From the NCBI GenBank assembly GCA_003224055.1, contig QHYE01000010.1:1-56531 (forward strand): a stretch of DNA of 56,531 bases. The letters are read 5' to 3'. Shown here in pieces: positions 184 through 43,692 of this stretch (positions are counted from its first letter, which is position 1; every line of letters starts with the position of its first letter). The stretch is from Acidobacteriota bacterium (GTDB lineage Bacteria; Acidobacteriota; Terriglobia; Acidiferrales; UBA7541). The position numbers and the translations under genes are program-made. The notes beneath the pieces were generated by a model that saw only the letters and a list, made by a program, of their open reading frames with translations, had not been told where the DNA came from and did not search any database.

Positions 184-214
184 CCGTACCCTTCGGTTTT
201 AAGGGTACGGTTTT
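184..214 (+). terminator. Hairpin followed by T-run, terminator-like
   Basis: A perfect 10-bp inverted repeat (CCGTACCCTT at 184-193, AAGGGTACGG at 201-210) with a 7-base loop is followed directly by TTTT. This is the shape of a rho-independent terminator on the plus strand. No gene is visible upstream inside the window, so it would end a transcript entering from the left. It could instead be a mobile palindrome of the accessory region. Confidence 0.5.
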
Positions 215-261
215 GACCCTTCTGCAGATTTCCAAAGCTTTTTCAAAGGCCCAGGCCCCCG

Positions 262-568
262 CAAACCCTTCCCATTGCCCCACTTACGTCCCACTGTATC
301 CCCGCTACTACATCCCCATTCGAATCACTAAGTCGTTAGTAGTTGACATTCGGTACATTCCGTGCTACCCTCTCGTATGAACTCGGCCCTACAATCTGGT
401 TCCCGCCCTCACCGTTCACCAGCCACTGGTCACGGGCCCCTAACTCCTGTATTTGCCACTCTTACGAGTCGCCCGCAAATCACTGAAAATCCAACTACTT
501 TAAGTCCTTTCCTTGCCACTCATACAGACTCCCCCTCCCCTAACTCCTTTATTTGCCACTCATACGAA
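262..568 (+). repeat. Cluster of about 27-bp imperfect repeats
   Basis: Three clear copies of one motif start near 441, 501 and 541, and a weaker fourth lies at 262-289. The shared pattern is TAA-[CG]-TCCT, a variable stretch, TTGCCACTC, then a TACGA-like end. Spacing is irregular (60 and 40 bases), unlike a CRISPR array. The same motif recurs in mixed orientation near 26598-26693, so this is a dispersed family rather than a local tandem repeat. The cluster sits just before the Cys/His-rich gene at 636. Its function is unknown. Confidence 0.6.
343..371 (+). promoter_or_regulatory. Possible sigma70-like promoter
   Basis: TTGACA at 343-348 is followed after 17 bases by TACCCT at 366-371. The -35 is perfect and the spacing ideal, but the -10 is poor. 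It would drive transcription toward the Cys/His-rich gene at 636. It is a sequence match only. Confidence 0.25.
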
Positions 569-635
569 AACAACCGGGATGTATACCAACTCTTCCCAAA
601 ATGGAACGCGCCGGCTCCGCCGGAAAGGAACTGCC

Positions 636-1081
636 ATGAATCACAAAACCACCAGCATCGCCACTGCCTCGATTCAGCTTCATTGTCAGCATCGTTTCCC
701 AGCCAGCGATTCTGCCGTCTGCCCATCGCCGACCCCGAGTCTGGCCTCTGCTCCAAACACGCCGCCGAGCACCAGAAAGACCTCGACCAAGCCGACCTTG
801 CTGCCTCCCTCATCGGAGACGCCGAGGAATTCCGCTCTGCGGTCGTTATCAACCGCTCCCTCGGCGAACTCTATAAACTCCAAGCCAGGAACAAAATCAA
901 CCCCCGCCGCGCCGCCGTCATGGCCTACACCTGCAACCTGCTCCTCCGCACCCTCCCCGCCATCGAGCACGAACTCCATTCCGAACTCGAAGACCAATCC
1001 CAGATCATCATCGACCTCCCTCGCCCCAAGCGCGACCCGCTCCCCAGCGAATCGCCCGATCGACCTGGCCATACCTCATGA
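636..1081 (+). pseudogene. Cys/His-rich small protein gene, single-base frameshift
   Basis: An ATG at 636 opens a frame beginning MNHKTTSIATASIQLHC. After about 20 codons the coding signal moves to another frame that reads FPSQRFCRLPIADPES and then GLCSKHAAEHQ, running on to the TGA at 1079-1081. Adding one C to the C-run at 698-700 would join the two into one protein of about 148 residues. The joined protein has a C-x9-C-x11-C-x2-H arrangement that could bind zinc, then a helical region containing NPRRAAVMAYTCNLLLRTLPAIEHEL-type sequence. I recall similar short proteins as multi-copy and typical of Acidobacteria, but no function is known to me. The lesion may be real or a sequencing error. 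Confidence 0.55.
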
Positions 1082-1115
1082 TGCGCATCATCCAGGCGGG
1101 CACCCAGAAATGTAG

Positions 1116-1135
1116 GGGCGCACTTCAGTGCGCCC
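1116..1135. repeat. Perfect 8-bp hairpin before the BNR gene
   Basis: GGGCGCAC (1116-1123), loop TTCA, GTGCGCCC (1128-1135). It lies between the frameshifted gene ending at 1081 and the BNR protein starting at 1230. No T-run follows, so it is not a classic terminator. It looks like a REP-type palindrome. Confidence 0.45.
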
Positions 1136-1229
1136 TCGCCGTGGCACAGCCATTCTTGCCTGTGCGCCTCACACGCATTGCTCCGTTCCCGCAGGCAAGG
1201 TATCCTCTCCCATTTCGGGGAGGTGCCGG

Positions 1230-8480: not shown

Positions 8481-8588
8481 AGGTGTAGTGAATGTAAAAG
8501 TCATACGAATGTGAAGTAGCGACCCACATCGGCCCCGAGTCATGCGGAGCTGCTCGCAAGAGCAGCGTCGAAGCGTTGACAGGGGAAC

Positions 8589-10332
8589 GTGCGGGCCGGG
8601 TATTCAGCCGCGTAAGTTCCTTCCTCCGGGACGCCGACGCTGTAAGGAGAAGCGGAAGGCCCCATCTGGAACGCCGATATCGCGAGGCGTTGCAGAGTCC
8701 CGCGCGGTCAGAGACCCCGAGCACGTACCGAGACACCTCGCGCGGGAACCGGGAGATCCCAAGTCCGCCCAGGGCTGCAGTAGCCCTGGGACGTGTCGGG
8801 AAGTCTAAGGACGTACGCCGATGACGGACGGACTTGGGAAGTCGGACAGACCTGTAGTACCTGAGAAGTCCCCGAACAAAGCCGGGCAACCGGTTGCGGA
8901 GGGGATGGAGGGAAGAGGACTGGCCAAAGGGAACCTGCCACAGCAAAACGCGTCCCGGACACCGAGCCGGAAAGACGCGCCTAGTGCGCTGGAGCGGGTA
9001 CGTCAAGCAGCAGGAAAGGATAAGAAGTTGCGGTTCACGGCGCTCCTGCACCACATCTACAACCTGGAAACGCTGCGCGGGGAGACGTGGCGGCACTACG
9101 GCGAGACGCTGGAGGGAAACCTCCAAGATCTTGCCGAAAGGCTGAAGCGAGGAGCGTACCGAGCGAAGCCGGTGCGTAGAGTGTTTATCCCGAAGGCCGA
9201 CGGGCGGCAAAGACCGCTCGGAGTCCCGACGCTGGAAGACAAGATCGTCCAGCGTGCGGCGGTCGAGGTGCTGAACGCCATCTACGAAACAGACTTTCTC
9301 GGTTTTTCGTACGGGTTCCGACCAGGGCGCAGCCAGCATCAAGCGCTGGATGCGCTCTACACCGGACTGCTGACGAGAAAAGTGAACTGGGTGCTCGACC
9401 TGGACATCAAAGGCTTTTTCGATGGCATTTCCCACGAATGGCTGGTGAAGTTCATTGAGCACCGAATCGCAGACCGGCGCGTCGTGCGGCTCATCCAGAA
9501 ATGGTTGAGGGCCGGCGTGCTGGAGGATGGGAAACGAATGCGGACGGAGGAAGGGACGCCCCAAGGCGGAAGTGCTTCGCCGCTTTTGGCCAACGTCTAT
9601 CTTCATTACGTATTCGATCTGTGGATCCAAGCATGGCGTCAGAAGCGCGCGCACGGCGATGTCATCGTGGTGCGTTTCGCGGACGACATCGTGGTGGGCT
9701 TCCACAGCAAAGCGGATGCCGATCAGTTTCGGGCGGAACTTACGGAACGAATGAGGAAGTTCAACCTGGAACTGCATCCCGAGAAAACGCGACTTCTGGA
9801 GTTTGGTCCGTATGCGATCGACCAACGGCAGTGGCGCGGAGAAGGGAAACCGGAGACGTTCAACTTTCTTAGCTTCACACACATCTGTGTGAAGAAGAGG
9901 AGCAACGGACGGTTCACGGTGCTGCGGCAAACGATCCGCAAAAGGTTGCAAACGAAACTGAACGAGGTGAAAGCCGAACTTCAGCGACGGATGCATGAAC
10001 CCATCCCCGAAGTAGGCAAGTGGTTGCAAGCAGTGGTGCGTGGACACATCCGCTACTACGGGGTGCCCATGAACCAACCGGCGCTGTATCTCTTTCGGTT
10101 CCAAGTGGGGCGGCTCTGGCATCGCGCGCTGTCGCGGCGCAGCCAAAAAGGCCACGTCCTTTGGGATCGCATGCGGCGCCTCATCACTCGCTGGCTTCCT
10201 GTGCCTACCCTCTGTCATCCCTATCCCCTGCGGCGCATGGGCGTCCTCACCTAAGGCAAGAGCCGGATGCGGGAATCCCGCTTGTCCGGATCCGTGGAGG
10301 GGGTTATGAGCGATCATGATTCCTACTCCGAC
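8589..10332 (+). mobile_element. Group II intron inserted in a toxin gene
   Basis: The element carries a reverse transcriptase/maturase gene and RNA ends typical of group II introns. A GTGCG start fits at 8589. After the coding region, 10259-10293 (GAGCCGGATGCGGG, then CCCGCTTGTCCGG) folds like domain V. The next bases fold as domain VI with a GCGA tetraloop and a bulged A at 10325, seven bases before the proposed 3' end ...CTCCGAC at 10332. It splits a HigB-like toxin gene but lies on the opposite strand, so it cannot be spliced from toxin mRNA. The 3' end is well supported; the 5' end is less certain. Confidence 0.75.
8821..10254 (+). CDS. Group II intron reverse transcriptase/maturase
   Basis: 477 residues. 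The reverse transcriptase palm is clear: RVFIPKADGRQRPLGVPTLEDK, YGFRPGRSQHQAL, VLDLDIKGFFDGISH, GTPQGGSASPLLANVYL and the catalytic FADD at residues 286-289 (Phe in place of the more usual Tyr). A thumb/maturase region with the GHIRYYGVP motif follows. The protein ends shortly after, in HPYPLRRMGVLT, with no HNH endonuclease motif visible, so the intron probably moves by an endonuclease-independent route. It assists splicing of its own intron and reverse-transcribes it at new sites. Confidence 0.92.
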   Translation: MTDGLGKSDRPVVPEKSPNKAGQPVAEGMEGRGLAKGNLPQQNASRTPSRKDAPSALERVRQAAGKDKKLRFTALLHHIYNLETLRGETWRHYGETLEGNLQDLAERLKRGAYRAKPVRRVFIPKADGRQRPLGVPTLEDKIVQRAAVEVLNAIYETDFLGFSYGFRPGRSQHQALDALYTGLLTRKVNWVLDLDIKGFFDGISHEWLVKFIEHRIADRRVVRLIQKWLRAGVLEDGKRMRTEEGTPQGGSASPLLANVYLHYVFDLWIQAWRQKRAHGDVIVVRFADDIVVGFHSKADADQFRAELTERMRKFNLELHPEKTRLLEFGPYAIDQRQWRGEGKPETFNFLSFTHICVKKRSNGRFTVLRQTIRKRLQTKLNEVKAELQRRMHEPIPEVGKWLQAVVRGHIRYYGVPMNQPALYLFRFQVGRLWHRALSRRSQKGHVLWDRMRRLITRWLPVPTLCHPYPLRRMGVLT

Positions 10333-26142: not shown

Positions 26143-26520
26143 TGGAGGCGGGGGGAGTCGAACCCCCGTCCGAAAAGCGCTGCGACACGAAGCCTACATG
26201 CTTATCTCAATTCGGTGTGCGACCCGGTCCGTGAGGACCTGTCGCGCGTTCGCCCGCCGCGCTCAGAATGAGCAAGAAACGCGGCCGGCTAGTCCGATGG
26301 TTCTCGCCCGAGCCTTACGGACCGAAAGGCTCAGGCCAGCTCACTGTGTGACGCCTCTGACCGGGCCCATGAGCAAAGCCCGGGGAAGCGGCAACTTAAT
26401 TAATTAAGCTGCAAGTGCCAAGTTGTTGTTGGCATTTCTAGTTTTCCACCAAGTTACGGGCAGGTGGCTCCCGGCATGCCTTCGGGCCGCGACAGCTTCC
26501 GTCGAAACCGTGTCGCCCCC
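26143..26520 (-). ncRNA. ssrA: tmRNA (transfer-messenger RNA)
   Basis: The 5' end at 26520 reads GGGGGCGACACGGTTTCGAC and the 3' end GGGGGTTCGACTCCCCC, then GCCTCCA. The 6-bp acceptor stem GGGGGC/GCCTCC pairs with one G-U. The T-arm is perfect. The tag-coding segment at 26404-26433 reads GCC AAC AAC AAC TTG GCA CTT GCA GCT TAA, giving the tag ANNNLALAA, whose LAA end is the usual protease signal. A second in-frame TAA follows. CCA seems to be only partly encoded. The RNA rescues stalled ribosomes with SmpB. It is convergent with the receptor gene, 13 bases apart. Confidence 0.95.
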
Positions 26521-26597
26521 TCGGTACAACTCCATTTTAGCACTACGGCGCAACTTCCAGAGAAGCTGGTTAACCATAACACCCCCCCCTGTTTTTT

Positions 26598-26693
26598 CAT
26601 AAGTGTTGCATCTAAAAGACTTAGCGATCCTGCAAGTTCTTTGCTTGCAACACTTACGGGAGACTTCATAAGTGTTGATTCTAAATAGCTTAG
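26598..26693. repeat. Three copies of the 27-bp repeat family in alternating orientation
   Basis: CATAAGTGTTGCATCTAAAA begins a reverse copy at 26598-26624, a forward copy (AAGTTCTTTGCTTGCAACAC core) lies at 26633-26661, and another reverse copy at 26667-26693. Reverse-complementing the first and third gives CTAAGT-like starts and TGCAACACTTA-like ends that match the copies at 441-568. The first and second copies can also pair as arms of a long imperfect hairpin. The role is unknown. The cluster lies upstream of tmRNA, between it and the VWFA gene. Confidence 0.6.
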
Positions 26694-27041
26694 GGAGAAC
26701 TGGAAAATCGAAAAGGGAAAGTGGAAAATGGAAAGAACGGGAGGGTCGGCGGGGATTTTGATTGGCACTTCCCGACAAGGTCGGGACCGAGGGTCGAGGC
26801 GGAGTGCAAGCACTTGGAGGCTCAGTATAAGCAAACATGCAGAAGGATAGCAGGGAAGTATACTGCTTGTCAATTACTTTGTGGGCATCATTCGAACGGG
26901 GCGGTAAAGTGTTGAACGTCCCGCAGTTACGTCCGGGATGCGGAAGACGATGGGATTAAGTGCTCAAGAATTTCGATATTCTTATATCATGGCATGGTAC
27001 AAAGGCAGGAGCGGCAAGGTCCCCGGACGAGGAAAGCTGAA
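26694..27041. other. Intergenic gap before the VWFA gene
   Basis: 348 bases without a convincing gene. The first half is purine-rich, low-complexity sequence (runs of GGAAA and GGGA between 26700 and 26760). The right end supplies GAGGAAA as the ribosome binding site of the VWFA gene. No promoter or hairpin stands out. Confidence 0.4.
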
Positions 27042-41859: not shown

Positions 41860-43692
41860 ATGTTTCGTCGTCGAGTGTGGCGGGCCTTGCTCCTTGCCGG
41901 ACTTACTTGGCTCATGGGTGCCGGTATTGCGGCTGCTCAACTATTTAGTGTGGCGTCCCAAGGCGATAAGTTTGGCGGCGGCCTCACTAGTTTGAGCGCG
42001 CTACAAACGGCGAAGATGGACTCCGCCATATTCCAATTCTATACTTCAGAGGCTTCTCCCTTAGAGTCTCCCGATATTTCAGTATCGAAGCTGGATCTCA
42101 AAGCACCCGGGAACGCGCGGAAAGAATACGGAAAAGGCTATCTGCAATTGTTGCGAAAGGACTTGCAAGGGGCCATCGATCATCTGGCGCGCGCAGTCTC
42201 TATTTATCCGAGTTTCGTGGCAGCGCATAACGCGCTGGGAATCGCGTATCTTAATCTCGGTCAGATCCAGCAGGCGCGTGACGAATTTGCAAGAGCGATC
42301 GCGCTCGACGACCACCTGCCCAACTCGTACTTGAATCTAGGATGCGCCCAGTTGGAGCTTCAACAGTACCCTGAGGCAGTAGAGTCCCTGAAGAAGGCCT
42401 CATCGATTGCGCCGCTTGATGTTCCGGTACTCACGGCTTTGACTTACGCAGAGTTTAAGAACCGTGACTATCCTGCTGTGATCGCGACCGCACGTCACGT
42501 GCATAACCATAAGCATCAAGACGCTGCCTTGGTGCATTTGCTTGCTGCTGGGGCGTGGGAAGCGCAACACAACCTAAACGAAGCGCAAGGTGAGATGGAC
42601 ATTTTGCTGGGTGAAGATCCAAAGTCGCCCTTATCCGGCCAGTTTCGACAAATTCTCGATCAGATCAAGGCAGAAAAAGTCAGCCTGGCGCAGGTCAAGC
42701 GGCATCCGGCTGATCCGTCCCCTTCATTGTCCAGTGCTCTGCCTCCCCTAAATGCAGAGGTGGTATCGCCGCAGATCCGGCAAGCTTCACAGGGCAACTC
42801 GCGGTCTGAGCAATCCGACGAGGATGTTGCCCACCAAGTTATCCGATTCCAAGTCCAAGAGGTTGCGATGTTGTTCGCCGCAACCGATCACGGAAAGTCC
42901 GTGACCAACCTCAGCCTTTCCGACATCGAAATTCGCGACGACAACCAGCCTCCGGAGACCATCCTCGGATTCCACAATGTCACTCAGCTTCCCTTGCGTA
43001 TCGGACTCATCATCGATATGAGCAACTCCATAATCGATCGATTTTCGTTTGAACAGGGCGCTGCCAGCAAGTTTTTGGAAACGGTGGTCACGGACAAGAG
43101 CGACCTTTCCTTTGTGATTGGCTTCAATAATTCTGTGTTCCTTGTGCAGGACTTCACGCCAGACCAAACGCTCACAGCTCGCGCAATTACACAACTTGCA
43201 CCCGGCGGTGGAACCGCTCTGTGGGACGCGGTTGCCTTCGCGGCGGACAAGCTGGCCCGTCCCGAATTACAACCCGTTGCCCGAATTCTCGTTGTGATCA
43301 GTGATGGCGATGACAACTCGAGCAGTGCTTCACTCCAAGAAGCCATCTGGGCAGCCCAGCGGGGCCAGGTCGCGATCTATGCAGTGAGCACCAAGGAAGG
43401 CTCCAACAACGAATCCAACCCATTGCTTGGAAATCGCGCGTTGAAAACATTGTCAGAACAGACGGGCGGCACCAGCTTTACACCTGGCTCCCTCGGCGGC
43501 CTCACTCGAAGTCTTGCCGACCTTCAGCAAGTCCTCCGCGGCCGCTATTTGGTCTACTACAGGCCCGCTTCCTCCAAGCCGGACGGACGATACCACGCCG
43601 TAGACATCAAGGCTGAAAAAGACGGCCACAAGCTGAAAGTCTACGCGCGCAAAGGCTACTATGCCTCGGCGCTGCTGGACGCTGGAATCTAG
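41860..43692 (+). CDS. TPR and VWFA-related secreted protein
   Basis: About 610 residues: signal peptide (FRRRVWRALLLAGLTWLMGAGIAAAQ), tetratricopeptide repeats in the first half (QGAIDHLARAVSIYPSFVAAHNALGIAYLNLG, QARDEFARAIALDDHLPNSYLNLG, PEAVESLKKASSIAPLD), then a VWA domain (about residues 350-560). The VWA metal site has IIDMSNSI (D-x-S-x-S), VVISDGDDN and AIYAVSTKE, and the family ending GRYLVYYRPAS, YHAVDIKAEKDGHKLKVYARKGYYA. It is probably periplasmic or surface-exposed, mediating protein contacts. ATG 41860 is chosen for GAGG nine bases upstream and for the signal peptide; 41836 is an alternative. Confidence 0.85.
   Translation: MFRRRVWRALLLAGLTWLMGAGIAAAQLFSVASQGDKFGGGLTSLSALQTAKMDSAIFQFYTSEASPLESPDISVSKLDLKAPGNARKEYGKGYLQLLRKDLQGAIDHLARAVSIYPSFVAAHNALGIAYLNLGQIQQARDEFARAIALDDHLPNSYLNLGCAQLELQQYPEAVESLKKASSIAPLDVPVLTALTYAEFKNRDYPAVIATARHVHNHKHQDAALVHLLAAGAWEAQHNLNEAQGEMDILLGEDPKSPLSGQFRQILDQIKAEKVSLAQVKRHPADPSPSLSSALPPLNAEVVSPQIRQASQGNSRSEQSDEDVAHQVIRFQVQEVAMLFAATDHGKSVTNLSLSDIEIRDDNQPPETILGFHNVTQLPLRIGLIIDMSNSIIDRFSFEQGAASKFLETVVTDKSDLSFVIGFNNSVFLVQDFTPDQTLTARAITQLAPGGGTALWDAVAFAADKLARPELQPVARILVVISDGDDNSSSASLQEAIWAAQRGQVAIYAVSTKEGSNNESNPLLGNRALKTLSEQTGGTSFTPGSLGGLTRSLADLQQVLRGRYLVYYRPASSKPDGRYHAVDIKAEKDGHKLKVYARKGYYASALLDAGI

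Follow-up and report, generated by a model that had tools for sequence, protein, structure and literature searches.

Short repeat arrays in dispersed, promoter-bearing elements of Acidobacteriota adjoin a zinc-finger-like gene family

A 56,531-nt stretch of DNA from an Acidobacteriota bacterium (contig QHYE01000010.1, analysed over its full length and called the window here) carries a short, imperfect motif repeated just ahead of a Cys/His-rich gene and again some 26 kb away beside the tmRNA gene. What are these repeats, and is their place beside that gene more than an accident? Our analysis locates them inside longer elements headed by promoters, and their adjacency to the gene family points to an uncharacterised partnership of repeat and protein.

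The repeat unit is about 29 bp long and formed by two conserved blocks, YGYAASYCCTTT-N4-GCMACWCWTACRA, between which our two-block model allows N4 or N5; across 149 distinct gap-4 units the ends are YGYAA and CRA. The original prediction had counted seven copies, four ahead of the gene and three near tmRNA, and as an observation it holds in part: the copies are real, with five strong, one weaker and one, its first copy, marginal (Table 1). Nothing in the reversed window scores 14 under the two-block model, against 36–38 for the three direct copies R1–R3 and 15.2 for the marginal unit, which is absent from the window matches of a covariance model. The second cluster alternates in orientation as predicted and forms a +−+ triad when read on the minus strand; its weaker unit, U1, does not appear in the genome-wide covariance-model match list. 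Both architectures of the family, one direct array and one triad, are present in the window. A strict 16-mer core (TTTGCCACTCATACGA) has three matches here at up to three mismatches, a number reached by 0/100 shuffles. A lone weak unit (42142–42167, minus strand, score 18.4, 1-nt gap) lies far from both clusters.

Table 1. Features of the two repeat elements and the adjoining genes in the window
Feature	Position	Strand	Score or basis
Marginal unit	260–289	+	15.2 (two-block model)
Element promoter, TTGACA, 17-bp spacer, TACCCT, after conserved ATTCGAAT box	343–371	+	read in sequence
Unit R1	439–467	+	35.9 (two-block model); 26.8 bits (covariance model)
Unit R2	499–527	+	35.9 (two-block model); 24.9 bits (covariance model)
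Unit R3	539–567	+	37.9 (two-block model); 29 bits (covariance model)
Conserved tail AAACAACCGGGATGTATACCAACTCTTCCCAAAATGGAAC, commonest 3' boundary of home-genome elements	568–607	+	element comparison
Ribosome-binding site AAAGGAA and ATG (636) of Cys/His gene	624–638	+	read in sequence
Cys/His-rich family gene (C-x9-C..C-x2-H), frameshifted	636–1081	+	ORF reading, profile matches
tmRNA gene ssrA, directly downstream of second element	26143–26520	−	Rfam match
Triad tail: A-run, G-run, GTTATGGTTAACCAG	26566–26596	−	read in sequence
Triad unit U3	26597–26625	−	28.1; 21 bits
Triad unit U2 (inverted middle)	26631–26659	+	30.3; 22.9 bits
Triad unit U1 (weaker)	26666–26694	−	21.0; 12 bits (covariance model), E 0.02 in window
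Promoter of second element, TTGACA-N18-TATCCT, with upstream TTCGAATGATG box	26844–26873	−	read in sequence

Genome-wide, copies stand far above control. The strict core occurs at 44 sites (up to two mismatches) in the 4.53-Mb home genome, against one in the reversed control. A sequence-only covariance model finds at least 122 units there at E ≤ 0.1 and at least 144 matches at E ≤ 5, both lower bounds since at most 150 first-look candidates were scored per genome; by our own grouping the matches fall into about 60 loci. With the two-block model, 77 loci (433 kb, for the most part picked for carrying the motif or the gene) yield 189 units and reversed sequence three.

These units are parts of longer elements of roughly 300–900 bp, each formed by a sigma70-type promoter, a leader, two to four units and a conserved tail; that the units sit inside promoter-bearing elements, most of them gene-less, had escaped the original prediction. 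Each of 30 home-genome elements, oriented by its units, matches the 29 others, and most are preceded by a ATTCGAAT-type box and a sigma70-type promoter. Homology ends 38–45 nt past the last unit, at ...TTCCCATTCTGGAACT, in 283 of 435 element pairs, and otherwise at 28–37 nt (86 pairs), earlier (5) or later (61). The spacing, first thought irregular, turns out to follow rules family-wide: direct arrays have a pitch of 39, 40 or 60 bp that recurs across loci and species, and triads keep a fixed 34/35-bp pitch, run +−+ and continue into an A-run, a G-run and often GTTATGGTTAACCAG. Modules of 160–500 bp have been copied within the home genome. The triad element of the window immediately precedes ssrA on their shared strand; the genes downstream of elements are varied. 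We call the elements intergenic on the basis of individually read loci, crude gene calls being too rough for counting; by eye on such calls, uncounted, arrays point more often to a same-strand gene start. Repeats translated as ORFs blurred a clustering of the families that neighbour 138 arrays. Five arrays (L082, L106, L188, L246 and L260) have an ECF-sigma-like ORF, assigned by eye and from a single cluster, at a distance of up to 600 bp.

Promoters were scored around 125 non-redundant arrays, each with 440 nt of flank on either side. A score of at least 12 within 420 nt was found upstream in the sense direction for 66 arrays, against 6 antisense and 6 downstream; the mean best score is 12.2 upstream in sense, 8.0 antisense, 7.1 downstream and 7.9 in shuffles, and none of the shuffle means (20 per array) reaches 12 (Wilcoxon 2e-16). 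TTGACA-N16-TATAAT is present in 10 of the best 30 promoter cases, and 59 of the 125 arrays lack an upstream sense promoter of score 12. Sense promoters upstream of the arrays place the units most probably within transcripts, and the elements are probably transcribed. Six direct arrays show no more folding than their shuffles (z −1.4 to 1.5), and a search for a hairpin within the unit revealed no complementary covariation at the dyad positions of the 149 distinct gap-4 units. RNA folding of six triads gives z values of −1.7 to −6.6; the pairings U1:U2 and U2:U3 both score above shuffles by most measures, each with a single column pair that co-varies strongly, a signal that can be explained by shared ancestry of two subfamilies.

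The Cys/His-rich ORF expected after the direct array is there, in a frameshifted state: the ATG at 636 is out of frame with the conserved part, which starts at about 698. A near-identical copy at a contig end (G000:C65, 99.7% over 392 nt) aligns gap-free over window 645–1036, so the frameshift is common to both as far as the contig reaches, and some further family copies are frameshifted or stop-containing. After each of the near-identical copies comes a 32-nt segment that contains an inverted repeat (GGGGCGCACTTCAGTGCGCC; window 1111–1142 and L307 3943–3974 in G000:C65). At E ≤ 1e-5 the family has members in 27 of the 36 genus genomes, with up to 14 copies. Its protein combines C-x9-C...C-x2-H with a helical part (predicted helices); searches gave no match over the curated cut-off in Pfam or NCBIfam and no convincing match in PHROGs or PADLOC. 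Pfam zf-primase (PF09329) picks up 3 of 21 members (E 0.0024 at best; one score of 12.1 bits, below the cut-off of 28.8), and a PDB search returned an MCM10 chain at E 0.56. Similarity to the MCM10/primase CCCH zinc finger is confined to the N-terminal C-C-C-H motif and a weak profile score; the remainder has no significant match in profile and structure searches. The predicted structure of the gene product is poor (mean pLDDT 67, pTM 0.37): Foldseek gave no match at E ≤ 0.001, and a second structure comparison with this poor model reached Z values up to 6.1, against unrelated helical parts. Judged by its motif, the family protein is zinc-finger-like, of the CCCH type.

The gene may follow the units or precede them. 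In the window, G007 and G009 it comes last, after promoter, units, tail and ribosome-binding site; in G000:C135, G000:C110 and G023:C1 it follows the promoter and stands ahead of the units and a G-rich tail. An element copy elsewhere (L005, G000:C29) matches window 537–635 and diverges at the ribosome-binding site and ATG of the gene. Of 42 family genes under a strong promoter, 14 have a promoter-proximal, terminator-like hairpin, its stems differing yet staying complementary (67 of 94 family copies were covered; truncated or partial ones and the window were left out). Gene-less loci, for example ppa of G013, also carry a promoter-proximal hairpin (21 pattern matches, several apparently accidental), so gene-less and gene-bearing copies form one family. 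Upstream of family genes at eight loci (L310, L311, L315, L349, L352, L353, L355 and L383) the hairpin has a similar leader (..ACTGCGCC in most) and a U-rich end; with this ACTGCGCC-type leader it looks like an attenuator or an RNA of roughly 40 nt.

Linkage was measured in the 20 genus genomes with at least ten units and any family copy, 94 copies in all (each of two overlapping pairs of pieces taken as one), using units of score ≥ 18 and flanks of up to 4 kb per side, many of them cut by contig ends. A unit lies within 500 bp of 34 of the 94 genes (19 upstream, 15 downstream), where 1.4 linked genes would be expected if arrays hold two units and 2.8 if each unit is its own array, on the assumption that a genome has 4,000 genes and an array two neighbours; at a stricter unit score of 22, 27 of 94 are linked. 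The nearest unit shares the orientation of the gene in 33 of the 34, one of which also has an inverted triad unit. Counted by distance, 27 units lie up to 500 bp upstream and 23 up to 500 bp downstream of family genes (50 in about 87 kb), against 6 at 500–1000 bp and 5 at 1–4 kb (about 456 kb), a contrast inflated because units avoid coding DNA; seven control slices of 18 kb hold one unit in 126 kb. Linked genes are partly orthologues across species, so the events are not independent. The units adjoin the Cys/His gene far more often than chance, and on this point the original prediction, which tied the repeats to the neighbouring family, was right; its interpretation as a whole is partly supported, with the REP-like assignment considered below and the irregular spacing falling away. 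No unit lies within 500 bp of 60 of the 94 genes (some flanks being cut by contig ends), and a family match is found within 600 bp of 10 of 138 arrays and of none of the other 128 (15 arrays are cut by a locus end). Per genome, unit number and gene number correlate with a Spearman coefficient of 0.61 over 36 genomes, kinship ignored; gene copies against units listed are 14 versus 8 in G003, 5 versus 0 in G002 and 0 versus 21 in G011.

The element family is found mainly in one GTDB genus of Acidobacteriota. Among 41 genomes scanned, the strict core is abundant only in some of the same genus, and 16 other genomes together hold four strict-core sites, fewer than the 18 of the reversed control. 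The unit model has matches in 29 of 36 genus genomes, with between none and at least 122 per genome among the matches listed. A pattern scan of a genome collection (84,980 species) returned 69 stretches, 66 titled Acidobacteria, Terriglobia, Acidiferrales or Acidoferrales and three others. The unit pattern occurs in three stretches of viral contigs (unit model 17.4 in two, nothing ≥ 14 in the third), where no relative of the Cys/His gene was confirmed. Window 220–620 has no match in phage or plasmid sequences, and we reject an origin from either.

Element positions vary between species. Three genes chosen because the home genome carries an element there have units upstream in a minority of genus loci: ppa (3 of 24), der (4 of 30) and ssrA (3 of 26, one of them with a single unit of score 16.8). 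A few other loci have a diverged element that is visible by eye and missed by the unit model, and at ppa of G013 and G048 the element type differs from that in G000. G007 and G010 share one intergenic site (flanks 91–95% identical), and the elements there differ and point in opposite directions: promoter, unit, unit, tail and gene in G007, and in G010 a different array with its own promoter, reversed relative to G007. This site is occupied in both genomes; for the elements generally, neither a clean empty site nor a readable target duplication was obtained. Arrays at larC (G000 and G008), xseA (three loci) and a ribA/B-type gene (two) are shared and seemingly vertically kept, the gene names being assigned by eye.

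Copy number, anatomy, sense promoters, gene linkage with orientation and variable positions are best accommodated if the units are arrays of dispersed, promoter-bearing, probably transcribed intergenic elements, a minority of which carry the zinc-finger-like gene, with protein and unit as partners; we give this reading a probability of roughly 0.45. From it we infer transcripts that display the units, binding by the zinc-finger-like protein and spreading by an enzyme. The promoter of an element would drive transcription and so display the units, unstructured in direct arrays, as linear sites to which the family protein would bind. Gene-bearing copies may then regulate themselves, and gene-less copies could serve as targets, decoys or outward promoters near host genes; copies would spread as non-autonomous repeats with the help of some enzyme. 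Possible, and more doubtful, is a fuller two-part system in which the multi-copy CCCH zinc-finger-like protein would bind tens of promoter-driven unit RNAs or DNAs in trans and the two would spread together as a novel family of repeat plus protein, selfish or regulatory in nature and lacking a known transposase; direct arrays would expose the linear unit, and inverted triads would switch between alternative hairpins.

Several features would suit double-stranded DNA operators at which a transcription factor binds downstream of strong promoters (by roadblock or looping, with 40/60-bp phasing), the Cys/His gene being a frequent regulon member: the 40/60-bp pitch recurs, there are two conserved blocks and no hairpin covariation, the units follow strong promoters, and the downstream genes are varied. 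A regulon, however, is expected at orthologous genes, which the low occupancy of ppa, der and ssrA contradicts; the copying of 160–500-bp modules within the genome and a sense orientation beside the gene (33/34) that an operator does not need also weigh against it, and we consider this reading unlikely, if a serious contender. The elements might instead be the ancestral promoter-leader of the Cys/His family, gene-less copies being functionless relics of gene loss and ectopic recombination. The match of L005 as far as the ribosome-binding site of the gene, the promoter-terminator module common to gene-bearing and gene-less loci and the frameshifted or stop-containing gene copies are all as such a history would leave them. 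Yet gene-less arrays outnumber gene-bearing ones by 128 to 10 of 138 and gene and units are found in both orders; moreover, units keep both blocks and their pitch across species and so do not look like relics, which makes this origin improbable. A CRISPR array or chance low-complexity repeat, suggested by repeated units with short spacers, has next to no probability: spacers are conserved between paralogous elements, the pitch is 40/60 bp, and neither the 44 sites against one control nor the 189 units against three reversed-control matches would be expected.

A further rival sees in the units REP/BIME-like palindromic repeats that a Y1 (RAYT/TIRYT) transposase has spread, and treats the link to the gene as secondary; the mosaic, dispersed organization and inverted triads recall such repeats. 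BIMEs are built from palindromic REPs and are not known to carry a promoter; they share with our elements an extragenic mosaic of units and conserved intervening modules in direct and inverted arrangements, whereas direct arrays here are unstructured and the elements bear promoters. In the passages of PMC3733652 that define them, REP/REPtron repeats carry a GTAG or CGTC tetranucleotide and are accompanied by a RAYT; the same passages describe acidobacterial TIRYTs/TIRtrons and a repeated TIR family in Koribacter, which favours this rival. REPs and REPtrons resemble our units in being short, many-copy, grouped, sometimes inverted, plausibly transcribed and attended by a dedicated gene family; our units differ in having neither terminal tetranucleotide nor stem-loop, in sitting in elements with a promoter of their own and in their zinc-finger-like partner. 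Terminal GTAG or CGTC was not found in the 149 distinct gap-4 units, and the home genome (assembly 95.58% complete) has just two partial Y1_Tnp (PF01797) matches, whose flanks hold no unit ≥ 18 and one of 15.1. With tag, internal hairpin and a RAYT with clear adjoining units all missing, the REP-like label of the original prediction is not supported in the sense of membership; we reject REP/RAYT membership and regard the transposase reading as quite improbable.

MITEs and Correia-type repeats are likewise dispersed, mostly non-coding and promoter-bearing, with a gene-bearing minority. Unlike them, 28 of 30 elements have no terminal inverted repeat that we could find, and no transposase relative was found: against the reverse-complemented 3' end, two elements have 4 mismatches of 19 and 28 have 7–10, where a reversed control gives 5–10 and the 5' end of the elements is only approximately mapped. 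We reject a MITE defined by terminal inverted repeats on these counts. A transposase-like ORF (by eye) stands beside only 3 of 138 arrays among the 25 largest neighbour clusters, and no recombinase for the elements was identified.

For dispersed repeats that come with a protein of their own, as REP does with RAYT, a transposase is the usual explanation. In the present family, statistics link the repeats to a small zinc-finger-like protein that no curated family covers, and near-consensus promoters stand ahead of the arrays. Should this protein bind the units, the pair would amount either to a new way of mobilising DNA or to a regulatory network built on repeats and rewiring gene starts, in a soil phylum that is common yet poorly studied; the unit model and gene profile make the system searchable. 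Six unit strings do not occur in the literature text searched, and keyword searches of titles and abstract openings found no description of this element. A known structured RNA is rejected, no Rfam match in the element region passing the cut-off (window 200–700 has two, far below gathering score). Across the whole window only tmRNA and a group II intron match Rfam; the intron spans 8497–10332 on the plus strand, with group-II-D1D4-6 at 8497–8717 and Intron_gpII at 10258–10332.
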